Of a DNA stretch of 43,453 bases, positions 28,038 through 38,483 are shown piece by piece. The DNA comes from Candidatus Zixiibacteriota bacterium (GTDB lineage Bacteria > Zixibacteria > MSB-5A5 > GN15 > JAAZOE01). Made by a program: the position numbers and the translations under genes. The number at the start of each line of letters is the position of its first letter. Within the stretch, counting starts at the first letter, position 1. The notes under the pieces were generated by a model. The model did not search any database. It had not been told where the DNA came from and worked only from the letters and a program-made list of their open reading frames with translations. The stretch covers positions 1 to 43,453 of the forward strand of contig JAZGGI010000037.1 in the NCBI GenBank assembly GCA_036480375.1, given 5' to 3'.

Positions 28038-28682
28038 ATGATGAGAGTGACAAGATTTTTTATTATTGTCTGTATGATCGCCGGATCGGCATCGGGGCAG
28101 TTTCTGGGGCAAATGACATCGGCAGATTGTCTTGAAAAGGGAACTAATATTGGCGGAGGTTATTTAATTATCGCCGAGGACGCGTTAGGCGTGGTCGGTT
28201 CATGGCGAATGGGACTGGCTGAGTATATCGAGGGTCGCGTTAGAGGCGGACTTATTGATCCGGAAAGAAGCGACGTAAATTTAATATTGGGAATTGACGC
28301 TAAATATCAATTGTGGGAATATATCCGAGGGGAAAATCCTTTTGATATGTCTCTCGGGACAGGAATAGAATATTCCAGGTTTGATGACGGGAAATATTTT
28401 AGCCTGACCGGTTCGATAACCGGATCCTATACGCATGATTTGCAGAGCGGAAAAAAAATTGAACCTTACGCTCAACTGCATTTGCGTCTCCAGCGGGTCT
28501 CGACCGATGATATTTATAATGGGGTGGGTCAAAAGGTTGGCGGCGGTTCCAATTCCGAACTAAAATTAGGCGGCAGTATTGGAGCCGTCTTTAGCGTTAT
28601 GACACTGGCTGATTTTACCGTCGAATTACAATTGGATGACCAATTCGCGATCATGGCGGGCCTGGATTTATTCGAGTTTTAA
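28038..28682 (+). CDS. Small outer-membrane beta-barrel protein
   Basis: A 214-residue protein with signal peptide (RVTRFFIIVCMIAGSASGQ). Amphipathic strands follow (GGGYLIIAEDALGVVGSWR, EYIEGRVRGGLI, VNLILGIDAKYQLW, FDMSLGTGIEYS, LTGSITGSYTHDL, PYAQLHLRLQRV), ending AIMAGLDLFEF with a C-terminal Phe as barrel signal. The length fits an 8- to 10-stranded barrel. It resembles the 4601 barrel in design but not in sequence. The function is unknown. It is 35 bases upstream of uppP with no terminator, so the two are probably one unit. Confidence 0.78.
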   Translation: MMRVTRFFIIVCMIAGSASGQFLGQMTSADCLEKGTNIGGGYLIIAEDALGVVGSWRMGLAEYIEGRVRGGLIDPERSDVNLILGIDAKYQLWEYIRGENPFDMSLGTGIEYSRFDDGKYFSLTGSITGSYTHDLQSGKKIEPYAQLHLRLQRVSTDDIYNGVGQKVGGGSNSELKLGGSIGAVFSVMTLADFTVELQLDDQFAIMAGLDLFEF

Positions 28683-28717: not shown

Positions 28718-29503
28718 ATGGAATTTTGGGATGTCTTAATTTTAGGCGTTATTCAGGGGTTAACTGAATTTTTGCCGATTTCTTCATCGGGCCATCTGGT
28801 CATCAGCCAGCATATGCTGGGAATCAAAGCTCCGGGAGTCAGTCTTGAGATATGGCTTCATTTCGGTACTTTGGTCGCGGTGCTGGTATATTATTATAAA
28901 CGACTCTTTGGAATCGTAAAAGCCTTGCTGGGCCATTCTGAAAACCGCGATGAAAACCTGCGTCTATTGCTGGCAATTATTGTCGGGACAATTCCGGCCG
29001 TGATAGTGGGGTTTTCATTAAAATCATCAATCGAATCGGCTTTTGGCTCAACAGCCTTTACGTCGGCCATGCTTGTTGTTACGGGTATGATCCTCCTGGC
29101 CAGCGGATTAGCCCGCAATAAGAACCTGCAAATAAATATTCCTCGAGGTTTCGCTATCGGGATTGCCCAGGCTTTAGCTATTTTACCCGGCATATCTCGC
29201 TCCGGAAGTACAATCACCTATGCCATGCTTTTGGGAATCAAGCCGGCTAAGGCGGCGGAGTTTTCATTTTTACTCGCCATACCGGCTATCGGAGGAGCAT
29301 TTCTGTTGGATTTATTATCGAGTGATAATATGGCCTGGTCGGGAAGCGAAATCGGGTTGTACTTAATTGGAGCTTTAGTGTCCTTTGTATTTGGATTGCT
29401 CTCGATTCATTACCTTCTGAAACTGATCGCACGCGGTAAGTTTTTTATTTTTGGGTTTTATTGCCTTGCCGCGGGAATTATTTCTTTTATATTTGTCAAC
29501 TGA
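28718..29503 (+). CDS. uppP: Undecaprenyl-diphosphatase UppP (BacA)
   Basis: A 261-residue polytopic membrane enzyme. The first signature is GVIQGLTEFLPISSSGHLV (Gln13-x3-Glu17, then SSSGH), and the second is LPGISRSGSTITYAM; both match the BacA/UppP family. It removes the terminal phosphate of undecaprenyl pyrophosphate, recycling the lipid carrier for peptidoglycan and polysaccharide synthesis. The length is typical. The stop overlaps the ATG of the glycosyltransferase fusion by one base (TGATG at 29501-29505), which couples it to heptose-linked glycan synthesis. Confidence 0.96.
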   Translation: MEFWDVLILGVIQGLTEFLPISSSGHLVISQHMLGIKAPGVSLEIWLHFGTLVAVLVYYYKRLFGIVKALLGHSENRDENLRLLLAIIVGTIPAVIVGFSLKSSIESAFGSTAFTSAMLVVTGMILLASGLARNKNLQINIPRGFAIGIAQALAILPGISRSGSTITYAMLLGIKPAKAAEFSFLLAIPAIGGAFLLDLLSSDNMAWSGSEIGLYLIGALVSFVFGLLSIHYLLKLIARGKFFIFGFYCLAAGIISFIFVN

Positions 29504-31059
29504 TGCGGAATATTATTATCATACGTCTGGGACGCTTGGGTGATGTTACGCTAACCGGGCCGACTATTAAAAATCTGCGTTTTCTATATCCGAATTCAAA
29601 AATATTTTACATAACACGGGAGCCATATCAATCTCTGTGTCATTCGCTTTTCGGAGTCGATGAAGTATTAACTTTTCCCGATAGGGGGAGCTATCTTGAT
29701 CTTATTAAACTATCAATTAAGTTAGATGATTTCCAACCCGACCTGGTCGTCGATTTACATAAAAATTTCCGTTCCTTTCATCTGGCAAATTTATGCAAAG
29801 CCCGCTATAAAGTAGTTTATAAAAAAAGGCGCAGAGAGCGGCAGGCAGCCGTCAATGGAAAGAAATTCGTTTCACCGATACCGCATACGATTGATCAGTA
29901 TAATCTCGTAATAGATCGGCTAAAGGGCGAACGTATCGCCAAACGGCCGGATATATTTTTGCCCTATGAAAAATTGTCGGATTATAAATATCGGAGAGAA
30001 GGCGTTGCCGTCGCGCCGGGCACCGGTTCGCCCGTTAAAAGCTGGTCGATCGAAAATTTCGTTTCCGTTATTGAAAAAATTGTTGGTGATTTTAATTTTC
30101 CGGTGTCGGTATTTCTGTCATCGGCGGATAAGGAAATTGAAGATAAGCTTTCTCCTTTGCCGAAAGACAAAGTTTCAATTTATAAGGATGAACCGCTGGA
30201 TCGAATTTGCGAACTCCTGTCACTGCATCGCTTGAGTTTGACCAATGATTCCGGATTAATGCATCTCTCCTCAGCATGCGGGACTCCGACTATGGGACTG
30301 TTCGGGCCGACTCATGAACAGCTTGGATTTTATCCCATGGGAATCCATGATAAGATGCTGGGCACGGACGAAAAATGCCGCCCCTGTTCGCTGCACGGCA
30401 ATGTCCCTTGTTATCGAGAGGAACAATACTGTTTCACTCGTTTGACGGTTGATCTTGTCTACGAACAGGCGGCAATAATTCTCAATCAGGAAGTTCTGTC
30501 TCCGGCCGTATTTATTGATCGTGACGGTACCTTGATAGTCGATAAGCATTATCTGGCCGACCCGGAAAAGATTGAATTTATTGAAGGCTCGGTTAACGCC
30601 TTACGAAAATTGAAAGAGGCCGGATTTAAAATCGTGATTATCTCCAATCAATCGGGCGTGGCGCGGGGCTTTTTCCCCGAAGAAACCGTTGTGAAAGTAA
30701 ATAATCGTCTGGTAGAATTACTGAAAGAAAATGGTGTCGAGATAGACGATATCAGATTTTGCCCGTACTATCCCGATGGAGATGTTCCCGAATACACCAG
30801 GGAAGATGAATGCCGCAAGCCTCGACCGGGGATGATTGAAATGAGCGCGACCGAATTGGGAATCGATTTGAAACGATCCTACATGATTGGCGACAAACTG
30901 GCAGACATTCAATGCGGTCAATCCGCCGGAGCGATACCCGTCCTGGTTCGCACAGGTTACGGTAAAGACACAGAAAAAGAATATCCCCCCCTGCCATATC
31001 CCTCTCCGTATTATATATGCGATAACTTAAACGCCGCCGCCGACAGGATTTTGTCATAG
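29503..31059 (+). CDS. GT9 heptosyltransferase fused to GmhB-type HAD phosphatase
   Basis: A 518-residue two-domain enzyme. The ATG at 29503 (MRNIIIIRLGRLGDV) is chosen over the upstream ATG at 29461: it overlaps the UppP stop and gives the standard GT9 start. Residues 1-320 form a GT9 heptosyltransferase-like GT-B fold (APGTGSPVKSW, TNDSGLMHLSSACGTPTMGL). Residues 330-518 are a HAD-IIIA phosphatase like GmhB: FIDRDGT with Asp339/Asp341, ISNQSG, CRKPRPGM, GDKLADI. GmhB dephosphorylates heptose 1,7-bisphosphate. The Zn loop has only two of four ligands: CPYY replaces CPHH, and DEC replaces CDC. One polypeptide thus links heptose maturation to transfer. Confidence 0.9.
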   Translation: MRNIIIIRLGRLGDVTLTGPTIKNLRFLYPNSKIFYITREPYQSLCHSLFGVDEVLTFPDRGSYLDLIKLSIKLDDFQPDLVVDLHKNFRSFHLANLCKARYKVVYKKRRRERQAAVNGKKFVSPIPHTIDQYNLVIDRLKGERIAKRPDIFLPYEKLSDYKYRREGVAVAPGTGSPVKSWSIENFVSVIEKIVGDFNFPVSVFLSSADKEIEDKLSPLPKDKVSIYKDEPLDRICELLSLHRLSLTNDSGLMHLSSACGTPTMGLFGPTHEQLGFYPMGIHDKMLGTDEKCRPCSLHGNVPCYREEQYCFTRLTVDLVYEQAAIILNQEVLSPAVFIDRDGTLIVDKHYLADPEKIEFIEGSVNALRKLKEAGFKIVIISNQSGVARGFFPEETVVKVNNRLVELLKENGVEIDDIRFCPYYPDGDVPEYTREDECRKPRPGMIEMSATELGIDLKRSYMIGDKLADIQCGQSAGAIPVLVRTGYGKDTEKEYPPLPYPSPYYICDNLNAAADRILS

Positions 31060-32197: not shown

Positions 32198-35005
32198 ATG
32201 ATGAGATTAAGATTTTTTATAATTAGTTTTTCCATCGTCGCCATTATTGGCTTTTTGTCAATTGAGCAGGCGCAGGCGCAGTTCTATTTTGGCAAAAATA
32301 AAATTCAGTACACGAATTTTAACTGGCAGGTAATGACGACCGAACATTTCAAGATATATTTTTACCCTTCAGAATTGGAATTAGCCGAAATCGCAGCCTG
32401 GTCCGCCGAAGAATCCTACAAACGTCTCGCGTCGCTTTTTAATTATGAAATATATGAGCCAATTCCGCTGATTATCTATAGTAATCCCAACTATTTTGTG
32501 CAAACCAATACGACATTTTACTTTTTGCCCGAAAACGTGGCCGGTTTCACCGAACACATGAAGGGTCGGGTGGTTGTACCTTTCAACGGTTCGTACTCCG
32601 ATTTCAATAAAGTCATCTGGCATGAAATGGTGCACGTCTTCACTTTCGCTAAGATTGGACAGACAATGCAGGATTACGGCCGTATGGCGTCGGCTTTTCC
32701 GCCGCAATGGTTCATCGAGGGGCTGGCTAATTACTGGTCTCGTGAGTGGGACAGCGAAGGCGACATGGTTTTAAGGGATATGGTCATCAACGGTAATTTG
32801 CCGTCCATAAGAAACATATGGATTTATAACAATACCTATTATGTGTATAAGCTGGGCGAGTCAATTTGCCATTTTATCGCTGATGAATATGGTGAGGATA
32901 AAATTACAGAATTATTTGAAAACTGGTCGGTGGGAAAAACATTTGATGATGTTGTTACTTTTACGCTGGGGCATAATTTGAATGAGCTTTCCGAAAAGTG
33001 GTCATATTATCTCAAAAAAAAGTACTTCCCGCAGATAGCCAATCTTGATTTACCTGATAAAAGAGCTACCAGGTTAACCAATCGAATCTTCGCCGTCCGA
33101 CCGGTACCGGTTACCTTGACCAACGAAAACGGTATCGAAGAACCCTGGGTGATATACAAAGCCAACAAGGTTGGTTATTCGGCCATTTATATGCAGCCGG
33201 CCAAAGGGGAAAGCAAAAAAGTAATAACTCTTCTTAAGGGCGAACGATCGGCCAAGTATGAGTCGTTGCATTTGCTGTCGAGCGGTGTCGATCAATTTGA
33301 CGATAAGCTGCTGGCCTTTGCATCTAAATCACAGGAACGGGATGTACTGTATATTTATGATCTGGATCATCGAAAAGTAATCACAAAGTATGAGTTTGAA
33401 AATCTTATCGGATTAGTGTCGCCTCGATTTTCTCCCCAGGGAGATCGGGTTGTCTTCACCGGATATCAATTGAGCGGATATGCCGACATCTATATGATAC
33501 ATCTCGAGTCGGGGGAATTGACGCAGCTCACCGATGATCTCTATAATGATCTGGACCCATCATTTGGATGCAAAGGAAACTCAATTATATTTTCATCCGA
33601 TCGCGGAGGTTATGGATCCGAAGGATATTTATCTCTGTACCGCATTAATCTGGATGACCGCCGATTGAGACGAATTACATTTGGAAAGTGCCATGATCGA
33701 TATCCCTCAGAGAGTCCTGATGGTCAACAATTGATATTCTCATCCGATCGCGGTGAAGAACGGTCGTTTAATATATTTAGCCTTGAACACGGACGAAAAC
33801 TATCCAAAGTAACCGAATATTTGACCGGGGCATTCGATCCCCGCTTTAATAAAAACGGCGAAGAGGTTTATTTTTACGCCTATCAAAACCGCGGCTTTCA
33901 TTTGTTTCGCTCAGATATAAATACTATGAAAACCGTCCCCGTCGATGAAAAAGAGAATATTGAGGTGCGCTGGATTCCGCAAAAAATAGGCACAGAAGCC
34001 CGGGAATCCACGGTTAAGTATAAGACTGATTATTCTCTTGATATCGCTCAATCGACAGTCGCTTATGACGGCGTTTATGGAACAATTGGCGGGATTCAGG
34101 CGGCGGTGAGCGATATGCTGGGTAACAACATGTGGATATTCCTGTTGTCTAATACGGCCCAGAGTAAAGATGATATATTGACCAGTTTCAATGTTGGCGT
34201 TACCTATCTAAGGCGAACAAATCGTTTAAATTGGGGAGTGGGCGCGTTTCATTTATATGATGAATACTATAATGATTTCGACGGCTTTTACTTTGAGCGA
34301 CTCATCGGTGGAGTTGGCTTACTAAGTTATCCCCTGACAAAATTCGACCGTATCGAAACATCACTGTTTCTGAGATACAGCGATAAAGAAAGATTCGCCG
34401 GTTTACAGCGGCGCCAAGCTCTACCCGCGACTCAGCTATTTAGTTTTATCACTGATAACACGCTTTGGGAACCTTTGGGCCCGATTGAGGGACGGCGGCT
34501 CAATTTAACAGTCGGTTTAAGCTACGATTTGAATTCGGCCGAAACATTTAACCGCCTGGCATCTATTGATTTTCGGCATTATCTAAGGCTGGGCAATCGC
34601 TCATCATTTGCCAGTCGATTCTTTGCTTATTCATCGGCTGGCACCGAACCGCAGAGAATATATCTTGGAGGCAGCTGGTCATTTAGAGGCCTCAGCCGTC
34701 GGCATTTCTACAATCGTAACATTCTTTTTAACTCTATGGAGCTTCGATTTCCTCTGATTAGTAACCTCATTATCGGATTCCCCATCGGGGCAATGAAATT
34801 CAGCGGTATTCAAGGCGCCTTATTCCATGACGCCGGAACCGCCTGGGATGATAACTGGATAGGATGGCGAGGATCATTCGGTGCCTCAATACGGGTAGCC
34901 CTGGGTTATTTGGTAGTCCTCAGATTTGATTTTTCCCGAATTCATAATTTTCACGGTATTTCAAAAAGTACAAGGACCGACTTCTTTTTCGGGTGGAATT
35001 TCTAA
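32198..35005 (+). CDS. Gluzincin peptidase-TolB-like propeller-BamA-like barrel fusion
   Basis: A 935-residue outer-membrane protein starting MMRLRFFIISF, giving a signal peptide cleaved near QAQA; the upstream ATG at 32162 lacks this fit. No clear ribosome site. Domain 1 (about 30-290) is a peptidase-MA-like gluzincin: HEMVH with His142, Glu143 and His146, and third ligand Glu174 in EGLANY. Domain 2 (about 290-615) is a WD40/PD40 TolB-like beta-propeller (SPRFSPQGDRVVFTGYQ, IIFSSDRG twice). Domain 3 (about 620-935) is a surface-antigen (Bac_surface_Ag/BamA-like) barrel with GGSWSFRGLSRR near the C-terminus and final Phe. It probably exposes or assembles surface proteins. It leads a three-gene coupled operon. 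Confidence 0.85.
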   Translation: MMRLRFFIISFSIVAIIGFLSIEQAQAQFYFGKNKIQYTNFNWQVMTTEHFKIYFYPSELELAEIAAWSAEESYKRLASLFNYEIYEPIPLIIYSNPNYFVQTNTTFYFLPENVAGFTEHMKGRVVVPFNGSYSDFNKVIWHEMVHVFTFAKIGQTMQDYGRMASAFPPQWFIEGLANYWSREWDSEGDMVLRDMVINGNLPSIRNIWIYNNTYYVYKLGESICHFIADEYGEDKITELFENWSVGKTFDDVVTFTLGHNLNELSEKWSYYLKKKYFPQIANLDLPDKRATRLTNRIFAVRPVPVTLTNENGIEEPWVIYKANKVGYSAIYMQPAKGESKKVITLLKGERSAKYESLHLLSSGVDQFDDKLLAFASKSQERDVLYIYDLDHRKVITKYEFENLIGLVSPRFSPQGDRVVFTGYQLSGYADIYMIHLESGELTQLTDDLYNDLDPSFGCKGNSIIFSSDRGGYGSEGYLSLYRINLDDRRLRRITFGKCHDRYPSESPDGQQLIFSSDRGEERSFNIFSLEHGRKLSKVTEYLTGAFDPRFNKNGEEVYFYAYQNRGFHLFRSDINTMKTVPVDEKENIEVRWIPQKIGTEARESTVKYKTDYSLDIAQSTVAYDGVYGTIGGIQAAVSDMLGNNMWIFLLSNTAQSKDDILTSFNVGVTYLRRTNRLNWGVGAFHLYDEYYNDFDGFYFERLIGGVGLLSYPLTKFDRIETSLFLRYSDKERFAGLQRRQALPATQLFSFITDNTLWEPLGPIEGRRLNLTVGLSYDLNSAETFNRLASIDFRHYLRLGNRSSFASRFFAYSSAGTEPQRIYLGGSWSFRGLSRRHFYNRNILFNSMELRFPLISNLIIGFPIGAMKFSGIQGALFHDAGTAWDDNWIGWRGSFGASIRVALGYLVVLRFDFSRIHNFHGISKSTRTDFFFGWNF

Positions 35006-36117
35006 TGAAATCCTTATTTCCGATATTATCAGCGGTCGTTATTTTTTTATTCTCGGCCTGCACCGTTCCCAAAAAATTAAAGCGCAACAATGGGTATTTT
35101 AAACCAATAAATGAACAAAAATTGGGCGTTTATCCTTCTGATGGAAATCTTACCGGGCAGCTAAATCTTTTATACGAATATAAAATCAAAGGCGCTCCGA
35201 CCGACCCGATAATACTCGGCGACCGCTATCTCAGCGTTCGAACCTCTCGCAATCGCGTGGTTTTTTATGATCAGGAATCAGGGAAGAGGGTGTGTCGGAT
35301 TAAACAGGGACGAGGCTTTATCTTACCGCCGTTGTTAACCGACTCATTAATTGTCTATGTAAAAAAGTCGCCTCTGGGGCAGATTAGAGTCCAAAATCTC
35401 TTTACCGGCAAGAAGATAGGCGAACTTAATGTAAAAGATATTCGATCCGGGCCGATAATAGTTAATAACAGCCTTATTGTGGGCACTACCACCGGCTTAT
35501 TGTCGCTCAATTTGACCGATTTGCGCCGGGAATGGAGGTTGAAAAACGATGATGTCGTTGATATCCTTCCGGTTTATGATGGTTCTCAGATTTATTATGC
35601 GGCCGGTAGTGGTCAGGTAAAGGCTGTTGAGCCCGGCGATGGTTCTTTGATATGGGAAATCGATTGCAATGCCTCGATAAGTTCAAAACTGGGTATCGGT
35701 CGTTATTTATATATCGGTTTAACCGACGGCGATATTCTGGCGCATGATAAGAACAATGGTAGTGTTGTATGGCGAACCGGTATCGGGTATGCGTATAGAG
35801 GCAAAGCCGTGGAACATAACGATAGAATCTACATAGGATGCACCGACGGCAAAGTTTATTGTTTATCGGCCGAGGATGGCGGAATAATTTGGGAGTATCA
35901 GACTGACGGTGTTGTCGTCGCCAGCCCTGTTATACATAGTCATACCGTTTTAATAGGGTCGTATGATCGGAATTTTTATAGTCTCGATGCCGAAAGCGGA
36001 GAGATGTTAGATAGCCACAATTTGGAAGGGCCGGTCGCATTTGCGGCGGTAATTAATAATAACAGGATTTTTGTGGCGTGTCAGAAAAATCGCATCTATT
36101 GTTTTGAGGAGCACTAA
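35005..36117 (+). CDS. BamB-like PQQ-repeat beta-propeller lipoprotein
   Basis: A 370-residue predicted lipoprotein (lipobox FSAC, Cys19). The ATG at 35005 overlaps the preceding TAA (TAATG); the GTG at 34993 would add four residues and weaken the signal peptide. PQQ-like repeats fill the mature protein: DGSLIWEIDCNASISSKLGI, NGSVVWRTGIGYAYRGKAVE, DGGIIWEYQTDGVVVASPVI, GSYDRNFYSLDAESGEML. This is the eight-bladed fold of BamB, which binds BamA in the outer-membrane assembly machine. It follows a BamA-like barrel protein directly, so the two probably form a complex. No quinone-binding activity is implied. Confidence 0.85.
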   Translation: MKSLFPILSAVVIFLFSACTVPKKLKRNNGYFKPINEQKLGVYPSDGNLTGQLNLLYEYKIKGAPTDPIILGDRYLSVRTSRNRVVFYDQESGKRVCRIKQGRGFILPPLLTDSLIVYVKKSPLGQIRVQNLFTGKKIGELNVKDIRSGPIIVNNSLIVGTTTGLLSLNLTDLRREWRLKNDDVVDILPVYDGSQIYYAAGSGQVKAVEPGDGSLIWEIDCNASISSKLGIGRYLYIGLTDGDILAHDKNNGSVVWRTGIGYAYRGKAVEHNDRIYIGCTDGKVYCLSAEDGGIIWEYQTDGVVVASPVIHSHTVLIGSYDRNFYSLDAESGEMLDSHNLEGPVAFAAVINNNRIFVACQKNRIYCFEEH

Positions 36118-38312
36118 TGGAACGCAATATAAATCTTAGCGAGAAAAATCTTCAAACCGATATTAAAAGCCTGACCCGGGAGATTGTCCACGAACTGTTT
36201 TTGATTTGTCGCAAAGCCGGAATATATGCCATTGACCATCCCATGATTCTCAATGGCCTCTCCAAGCCGTTTCTGGGTTTGCAACGCCTGTTCGGATTTA
36301 AAAAATATTTTATATTATATTTCACTGAGGGACGATTATACGCCAATAATATTCTCATGGCCGATGCCGGGGCCGTGAACTATCTTAAAGATAAAATGCA
36401 TGAGCTGGATATCAAATCGATCGCTTTCGACGAAAATCTGACAGCCGGTGAGTTTACTGCTTTTATTGAGCGGTTTGTCGGACGTATAAATCCTTCTCAC
36501 CCTGATTATGCGATGGAATCATATTTAGAGAGGCTACGGATTTCGACGATTTTAATCAATAGTCCCCTAATTGAAAAACTATATAATACCGGTTTACGGT
36601 ATCGCGAAGTGCAACTTGATGATTTTTCCGTCAGGCGCATGGTGACGGATTATTTATCGGGCGATATTAATCTGGCGGTAAAGATGCTGGCCGGCGGTTA
36701 TATGGATACCGGTAACCAGGCCGAAGACTCCGGAATCGATTATCATAAAGAAATCGTGCAATTTATATTGCCAGAAAAGTTTTCGGAGTTGCAGTCTTCT
36801 GAGCTGTTGTCGATGGCCTTGAGGATTCTGGAGGAAAATCCCTATAAGAACGATGAGTTACCCGACGAATTGATTCAACTTATTCATTCTTTTAATTTCC
36901 ACCCGCGCCGTGACGAATTGACCAATAAAATCCAATCGCATTTAATGGATCAGGGTTACCAATCGAATATACTTGAAAATTGCTTATCCGTTCCGGCCTC
37001 GATTATGCTGGAAACAGTTCAGGATATTGATCGTATCGGCAATGATATTTATTCTGAAAAGTACCGGGAAGCGCTCTATGGCGAATTCCGTGATGCCTTT
37101 ATCAGGTTGCTGCGAACCCGGCAGATTGGTAAAGCGGCCAGCATTTCCGAAAAGGTAGTAAATTACCTCGCCTCCGATACGGCCATCTATCGCCAGCATT
37201 CAATTTGTCTATTAAAAGATATAATAGCCACCAGCATCACTGCGGGAGAAAACGAGTTTTTGAACGCGATTCTGCGCTATATGCAGTCTTTGTTTACTCG
37301 CGGACTGGAGTCATTTGAATTCTCCGAAGTCGCCTTTGAGCTATTAAATGTTATGATTTCTATGCAGAGATATAAGGCTGTCGCGGAATTTTTAAATGTT
37401 CTCAGCTCCAGCCGCCGTTATGAGAATGGGGTTTTAGTTTATGACTCGGTTACGGTGCGACGTATCTTTGAAGTGCTGGATAATAAAGAATTGATCTCTC
37501 AATTGATAAGGGGAATTCAGACACCGAACGGTAATCTCGTTAAACAGGTACGAGATATTTTAATAGCCCTGCAATCAGAAGAGGTTGCTCTTCAATTAGC
37601 GGAAATCGTAATCCACCCTAACCGTCAAATCCGTCAACACTGTTTGAAAATTCTATCGGAATCGGGCCAACCGGCGGTGAAAGTATTTTCGGATATATTG
37701 AGGGATGAGAAATATTTTATGCGACCCTTCGATCGCCGCGAATTGCCCGATGAAAAGTGGTATCTGATTAGAAATGCTATTTTTGTTCTGGGAAATTTGG
37801 GGGACAAGGAAGCCTGCGATGCTTTCAGGTTCAGACTATCAGACTCCGATGTTCGGGTTCGCCTTGAAATGGTTAGAGCGCTGGAGAAGATAGACGCCAA
37901 TGAATCGGTTGATTTGTTAATGCTCCTTGCGGAGGATCCCGATAGCTCTGTCCGTGAAGCCGCCATTATCGTTTTGGGCCTGAAGAAAAGAAGCGATTTA
38001 TTCCCGTTTTATGTTGATCTGATCGGCCGGCAAAAGGGCGAGGCCGACCGTATTATTAATGCCCTTGCGCTCACCGGGAGTTTGGAAGCACGCGATTATC
38101 TCTGGAATCTTCTGCAAAACGATCAAAAATTAAAAGAATTATCGTCCGGTAAATTGTCCGTAAATCTGATTCAATCCGCAATAATTAAGGCTCTTGAAAA
38201 GATCGGCGATGATGAAATAATAAAGAAACTCGAGAATTATAAGCCTGATCAGCAAAATAATATATCAAAAACAGCCAAAATATTTTTAAACAAACTAAAT
38301 CTAAAGCAGTAA
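36117..38312 (+). CDS. HEAT-repeat protein, probably cytoplasmic
   Basis: A 731-residue protein with no signal peptide and no membrane helix. The first 300 residues form a helical domain with KKYFILYFTEGRLYANNILM and DIKSIAFDENLTAGEFTAFI. HEAT repeats are seen from about 470: RQIRQHCLKILSESGQPAVK, DSDVRVRLEMVRALEKI, DPDSSVREAAIIVLGLKKRS. HEAT proteins of this type are scaffolds or lyase partners. The ATG overlaps the preceding TAA (TAATG at 36115-36119), so it is co-translated with the BamB-like lipoprotein. How a cytoplasmic protein fits two envelope proteins is open; signalling of envelope state is one idea. Confidence 0.82.
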   Translation: MERNINLSEKNLQTDIKSLTREIVHELFLICRKAGIYAIDHPMILNGLSKPFLGLQRLFGFKKYFILYFTEGRLYANNILMADAGAVNYLKDKMHELDIKSIAFDENLTAGEFTAFIERFVGRINPSHPDYAMESYLERLRISTILINSPLIEKLYNTGLRYREVQLDDFSVRRMVTDYLSGDINLAVKMLAGGYMDTGNQAEDSGIDYHKEIVQFILPEKFSELQSSELLSMALRILEENPYKNDELPDELIQLIHSFNFHPRRDELTNKIQSHLMDQGYQSNILENCLSVPASIMLETVQDIDRIGNDIYSEKYREALYGEFRDAFIRLLRTRQIGKAASISEKVVNYLASDTAIYRQHSICLLKDIIATSITAGENEFLNAILRYMQSLFTRGLESFEFSEVAFELLNVMISMQRYKAVAEFLNVLSSSRRYENGVLVYDSVTVRRIFEVLDNKELISQLIRGIQTPNGNLVKQVRDILIALQSEEVALQLAEIVIHPNRQIRQHCLKILSESGQPAVKVFSDILRDEKYFMRPFDRRELPDEKWYLIRNAIFVLGNLGDKEACDAFRFRLSDSDVRVRLEMVRALEKIDANESVDLLMLLAEDPDSSVREAAIIVLGLKKRSDLFPFYVDLIGRQKGEADRIINALALTGSLEARDYLWNLLQNDQKLKELSSGKLSVNLIQSAIIKALEKIGDDEIIKKLENYKPDQQNNISKTAKIFLNKLNLKQ

Positions 38313-38394
38313 TCTAAGCCAAAATAGCATGTAAAGATAAATATAATGCCATTGTGGCGCATAATTTTGTCCAAATTGGCAGTACGACTAATTC

Positions 38395-38406
38395 TTAGAA
38401 TTCTAA
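38395..38406. promoter_or_regulatory. perfect palindrome in the dnaK promoter region
   Basis: TTAGAATTCTAA, an exact 12-base palindrome 94 bases before the dnaK start, next to where the -35 box of the TATAAT at 38428-38433 would lie. It does not match CIRCE (TTAGCACTC-N9-GAGTGCTAA). A heat-shock repressor operator is a reasonable guess. Confidence 0.4.
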
Positions 38407-38427
38407 ATTCTCCGTAATTGATTTATA

Positions 38428-38433
38428 TATAAT
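38428..38433 (+). promoter_or_regulatory. -10 element of the dnaK promoter
   Basis: TATAAT 67 bases before the dnaK start, with no recognisable sigma-70 -35 at 16-18 bases. An activator or repressor may use the palindrome just upstream. Confidence 0.45.
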
Positions 38434-38447
38434 AGCTTATCGTTTTC

Positions 38448-38483
38448 GGCACTATATTTGATAGATATTTGAAAAAAAGTGCC
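38448..38483 (+). promoter_or_regulatory. inverted repeat in the dnaK leader abutting the ribosome site
   Basis: GGCACT (38448-38453) and AGTGCC (38478-38483) are exact complements separated by 24 AT-rich bases. The right arm touches the AAAAGGAG ribosome site (38484-38491). The fold could hold the ribosome site near structure and act as a thermosensor. Confidence 0.4.

Follow-up and report, generated by a model that had tools for sequence, protein, structure and literature searches.

Omp85 proteins without POTRA domains have been catalogued for more than 10 years without a known job. A locus of Candidatus Zixiibacteriota bacterium, at which a gene for such a barrel fused to a protease overlaps two further genes, raises the question of what the barrel does and which of its neighbors work with it. 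A preliminary description, made from the DNA letters, had proposed that all three genes (here P1, P2, and P3) could form an undescribed outer-membrane assembly, processing, or surface-release system. Here, we report a computational follow-up of the window (the whole stretch of DNA analyzed, 43,453 nucleotides), which partly supported that interpretation: we take P1 and P2 as a unit and P3 as an optional neighbor.

Gene layout

The three open reading frames (ORFs) lie where the preliminary description had placed them (P1, 32198 to 35005; P2, 35005 to 36117; P3, 36117 to 38312), and TAATG joins both P1 to P2 and P2 to P3. Their features are as follows.

32198-35005, + strand: P1, peptidase MA, TolB-like propeller, and POTRA-less Omp85 barrel protein, 935 amino acids (aa) (ORF, Pfam, AlphaFold2, orthologs)
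32198-32278, + strand: P1 signal peptide, likely cut at AQA27/Q28, with Q28 invariant in orthologs (sequence, alignments)
32327-33064, + strand: P1 gluzincin (Peptidase_MA_2) domain, residues 44 to 289 (Pfam, AlphaFold2)
32621-32635, + strand: P1 HEMVH zinc-binding motif, H142 to H146 (ortholog alignment)
32717-32719, + strand: P1 E174, third zinc ligand of the gluzincin motif (ortholog alignment)
33089-33937, + strand: P1 TolB-type PD40 propeller, residues 298 to 580 (profile matches, AlphaFold2, foldseek)
34007-35002, + strand: P1 Omp85-type barrel, residues 604 to 935, with a C-terminal aromatic residue (Pfam, AlphaFold2, foldseek)
34682-34690, + strand: P1 Omp85 L6-loop signature FRG, R830 and G831 invariant (71-ortholog alignment)
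34823-34837, + strand: P1 Omp85 strand signature FxDxG, F876 and D878 invariant (71-ortholog alignment)
35005-36117, + strand: P2, PQQ-propeller (BamB-like) lipoprotein, 370 aa, with an alternative GTG start at 34993 (ORF, Pfam, orthologs)
35059-35061, + strand: P2 lipobox cysteine C19 (ortholog alignment)
36117-38312, + strand: P3, alpha/beta N-terminal region and HEAT solenoid, 731 aa, without an export signal; optional neighbor (ORF, Pfam, fold search)

A promoter scan 5′ of P1 gave no excess over shuffles. The genes stand in a block that runs sodium symporter, small outer-membrane-like protein, uppP, GT9-HAD, radical SAM, P1, P2, P3, dnaK, and dnaJ. At 29461 to 31059, one ORF encodes both a family 9 glycosyltransferase (heptosyltransferase type) and a HAD phosphatase and is kept in the syntenic block. 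Relatives share, at 22 to 47% identity, a small exported protein without a Pfam match that is encoded at 28038 to 28682, flanked by the symporter and uppP genes, and an IS3-type transposase fragment lies at the contig end (42933 to 43373, minus strand).

Architecture and conserved sites of P1

As had been read from the letters, P1 combines a protease, a TolB-like propeller, and a BamA-like barrel in one chain. In Pfam searches, Peptidase_MA_2 matched at 45.8 bits (cut-off, 32.4) and PD40 at 48.1 bits (cut-off, 20.9); the barrel narrowly passed the Pfam Omp85 cut-off in the genome search (25.2 versus 24 bits). A search that gave POTRA matches in four other proteins of the same genome gave none in P1. 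The AlphaFold2 single-chain model (pLDDT, 83; pTM, 0.79) placed a helical zincin at residues ∼44 to 289, a propeller at ∼298 to 580, and then a barrel to the C terminus, with roughly 16 barrel strands at residues 621 to 933 and low confidence at 614 to 626. In the PDB (foldseek), the propeller of the model neighbored TolB and its barrel BamA; the propeller also resembles those of tricorn and S9 peptidases. A PDB sequence search with the peptidase domain alone returned nothing significant, and a closest named relative of this domain is the surface protease flagellinolysin. P1 did not match Pfam Peptidase_M48, the family of BepA; its paralog scored 19.7 bits, below the cut-off of 20.3.

The proposed HEMVH/Glu174 gluzincin site is intact, and its residues are conserved: H142, E143, H146, and E174 do not vary across all 71 orthologs, down to 37% identity. 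R830, G831, F876, and D878 of the barrel are likewise identical in all 71, and G880 in 70. Together, zinc site and Omp85 motifs show strong purifying selection on both the predicted enzyme and the barrel mechanism.

Linkage of P1 and P2

P2 proved to be the BamB-like PQQ-propeller lipoprotein that had been described, with a PQQ_2/BamB-type propeller at 89.6 bits (Pfam cut-off, 27.6). It is a predicted lipoprotein throughout, and the lipobox cysteine C19 is invariant in 50 orthologs. BamB structures were among its best profile matches, ranking after designed propellers.

P2 directly follows P1 at 60/60 Zixibacteria loci and adjoins it at 8/9 non-Zixibacteria loci; a stop-start (RTG) overlap joins the two at 45 of 74 loci. 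The stretch from symporter to dnaJ is largely syntenic within the order (most of 20 relatives mapped), and adjacency of P1, P2, and P3 there is therefore weak evidence alone. The telling evidence comes from a second, Latescibacterota-type phylum (G106, L141), where the uppP-dnaK context is absent and P2 still follows P1 at 21 of 25 loci. Among 56 genomes of that phylum, with presence scored by bit-score gaps chosen after the data were seen, 24 had both genes, 3 had P1 without P2, none had P2 without P1, and 29 had neither (Fisher P = 7e-13, which overstates independence because the counts are clade structured and come from related genomes). P2 is missing beside a few P1 genes that branch deeply (G113 to G115 and L135).

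These data bear on a reading in which nothing but frozen gene order, from the transporter gene to dnaK-dnaJ, holds together three functionally unrelated genes. Synteny of the whole block is what such a reading predicts, and P3 behaves accordingly, being absent in several genera and without a close ortholog in the second phylum. For the locus as a whole we consider it very unlikely: P1-P2 persists in the second phylum without the block, where P2 never occurs without P1. The expectation that the three genes travel together thus held for P1 and P2, across two phyla, and failed for P3, which is linked only in Zixibacteria.

At second-phylum loci L141, L137, L142, and L143, P2 has 3′ of it genes for a small exported protein and a lipoprotein of ∼420 aa (C-DRQRRNPLDP). 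The latter is a possible further partner in the Latescibacterota-type phylum.

Distribution and the paralog P1b

A profile built from the 71 P1 orthologs found P1-family proteins in 83/83 genomes of the Zixibacteria phylum searched (78/78 of those of high quality); of the 56 second-phylum genomes, 55 have a member of the family. Nearly every Zixibacteria-phylum genome searched carries two copies, P1 and P1b. P1b of the genome studied here (1,117 aa; L037:15370-18723, contig C28) has an intact HExxH plus Glu and intact Omp85 motifs; HExxH plus Glu and the L6 pattern are kept in 21/21 P1b proteins. In each of 13 Zixibacteria genomes examined, murA is immediately followed by P1b. In a tree (quick method, midpoint root), a fully supported branch separates P1 from P1b; the duplication appears old, since each side of that branch has members from both phyla. 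Zixibacteria are uncultured and little studied; each of their genomes examined has a P1-family protein, almost always with P2 encoded beside it, and this protein is therefore probably a core yet undescribed part of outer-membrane building or proofreading in Zixibacteria.

Relation to known systems and proposed function

The same genome encodes a canonical BamA with five POTRA elements (contig C22), a TamA-TamB pair (C50), a true TolB at another locus (above the curated cut-off), a PlpD-like patatin-POTRA-Omp85 protein (L209:743-3445, contig C28), and further Omp85 proteins. P1 was considered as the BamA or TolB of this genome and rejected, as canonical copies of both are present elsewhere. Because canonical BamA, TolB, and TamAB are present, P1-P2 works beside them and not instead of them. 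The echo of TolB and of the BamA-BamB partnership noted in the preliminary description stands by fold. It does not extend to identity: P1 and P2 lie far below the curated BamA, TolB, and BamB cut-offs, with P1 at 101.7 bits against 343.15 for TolB (NCBIfam TIGR02800) and P2 at 108 bits against 285.2 for BamB (TIGR03300), and the comparison within the genome placed the canonical BamA and TolB at other loci. TolB of Tol-Pal shares its propeller fold with P1 and is the best PDB match of the P1 propeller.

The nearest described kind is the uncharacterized WD40-Omp85 subfamily (Heinz and Lithgow 2014, PMC4104836), which has a TolB-like N-terminal propeller and a POTRA-less Omp85 barrel, is known from sequence only, and has been likened to a BamA-BamB fusion. 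P1 fits this class by architecture. The main text of that paper ascribes to the subfamily neither a peptidase domain nor a partner lipoprotein; P1-P2 has both. No WD40-Omp85 member was found studied in the literature searched. As far as the searches showed, the system is without published description, as had been supposed: no account of the peptidase-propeller-Omp85 combination or its lipoprotein was found, with subscription journals and preprints mostly outside the search. In this lineage, one kind of POTRA-less Omp85 protein, with an intact protease site and a dedicated lipoprotein partner, is present in every genome examined.

In PlpD (PMC11116518), as in P1, an enzyme domain precedes the Omp85 barrel; PlpD differs in having a POTRA and a patatin lipase instead of the zinc peptidase and propeller of P1. 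Its enzyme domain was measured to be periplasmic, as N-terminal parts of Omp85 proteins are, and by analogy we infer the same for the N-terminal domains of P1; the preliminary description had called P1 a surface protein, which is not supported. The PlpD result also counts against a type V-like mode, in which the P1 barrel would export its own protease-propeller part to the surface, there digesting external proteins or releasing surface proteins. Export of Omp85-enzyme fusions has been discussed (PMC4104836), and the kinship with flagellinolysin would suit it, but a PQQ-lipoprotein partner and universal conservation at a single locus fit a housekeeping envelope role better, and we regard surface export as highly improbable.

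In E. coli, the BAM complex, its BamB subunit, and the protease BepA (PMC13067283, PMC8423444) bring together the same parts, an Omp85 barrel, a BamB-fold lipoprotein, and an HExxH zinc peptidase at the barrel machine. There, however, they are separate chains; P1 has no POTRA, to which E. coli BamB binds, and no M48 match. A review among these papers places the origin of BamB within Proteobacteria. BamP of the Bacteroidota BAM was considered as a related protease subunit and set aside, as its paper does not contain the word "peptidase" and presents BamP as accessory, positioned at the seam of BamA.

Tentatively, we favor reading P1-P2 as an Omp85 machine that lacks POTRA, has a zinc peptidase built in on the periplasmic side, works with a BamB-like partner, and probably acts in outer membrane protein (OMP) assembly or quality control. 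In P1, a gluzincin and a TolB-type propeller take the place of periplasmic POTRA domains. P2, anchored in a membrane (probably in the outer membrane, on its inner leaflet), would dock on the part of P1 that faces the periplasm, in the way that BamB binds BamA. The P1 barrel may assist the insertion or movement of certain outer-membrane clients, while the propellers of P1 and P2 would hold clients or partners in the envelope. The peptidase would process clients or cut stalled ones, like BepA, a separate protease, on the E. coli BAM. Such a module would act alongside canonical BAM, TAM, and Tol-Pal.

The main rival, somewhat unlikely in our judgment and ahead of surface display, treats the barrel as a mere anchor and P1-P2 as a periplasmic site of proteolysis or peptide processing that takes no part in OMP assembly. 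The P1 propeller would then gate the entry of substrates, like the propellers of tricorn or S9 peptidases. The propeller resemblance and the strictly conserved active site agree with this rival, BamA and TamA are present, so that assembly can do without P1, and the barrel of PlpD-type proteins may likewise be only an anchor. A pure anchor is nevertheless disfavored because it would not need the Omp85 L6 and strand signatures, which are tied to the assembly or translocation mechanism and kept as strictly as the zinc site; the BamB-like nature of the partner also argues for the assembly or quality control reading. A bolder form of that reading, which we think unlikely, is that P1-P2 and, in parallel, the murA-linked P1b constitute a second, essential, unrecognized branch of outer-membrane assembly, conserved across one phylum or more, with a protease-propeller cage in place of POTRA and each client assembled or destroyed inside one polypeptide. 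P1-P2 offers a defined two-gene unit for asking whether Omp85 barrels assemble clients without POTRA and whether proteolytic quality control is built into an Omp85 machine.

P3 and its neighborhood

P3 is, as proposed, a HEAT-repeat protein without an export signal (HEAT_2, 77.7 bits, above the Pfam cut-off; no signal peptide). Among the matches listed, a PDB fold search returned only generic HEAT/armadillo solenoids and gave no identity for the N-terminal region. Its orthologs are confined to Zixibacteria and missing in several genera there, and no close ortholog was found in the second phylum; some genomes (e.g., L104, L108, L113, and L130) have it 5′ of P1, and the P2-P3 overlap is kept at only 4 of 43 loci. 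Because it is mobile, limited to Zixibacteria, missing in several genera, and rarely overlapping, P3 is optional and not core. The idea of P3 as a regular third partner was dropped on the same absences and the unkept junction, and frozen gene order remains likely for this gene. We read P3 as a cytoplasmic HEAT scaffold, linked in Zixibacteria and outside the core.

P3-type HEAT proteins stand on both sides of P1-P2 at L102 and L114, which suggests local duplication of P3. The gap between P3 and dnaK in the window is only 167 bases (38312 to 38479); in relatives (L039, L041, and L042), an ORF between the two genes resembles a small heat-shock protein (Hsp20/alpha-crystallin).
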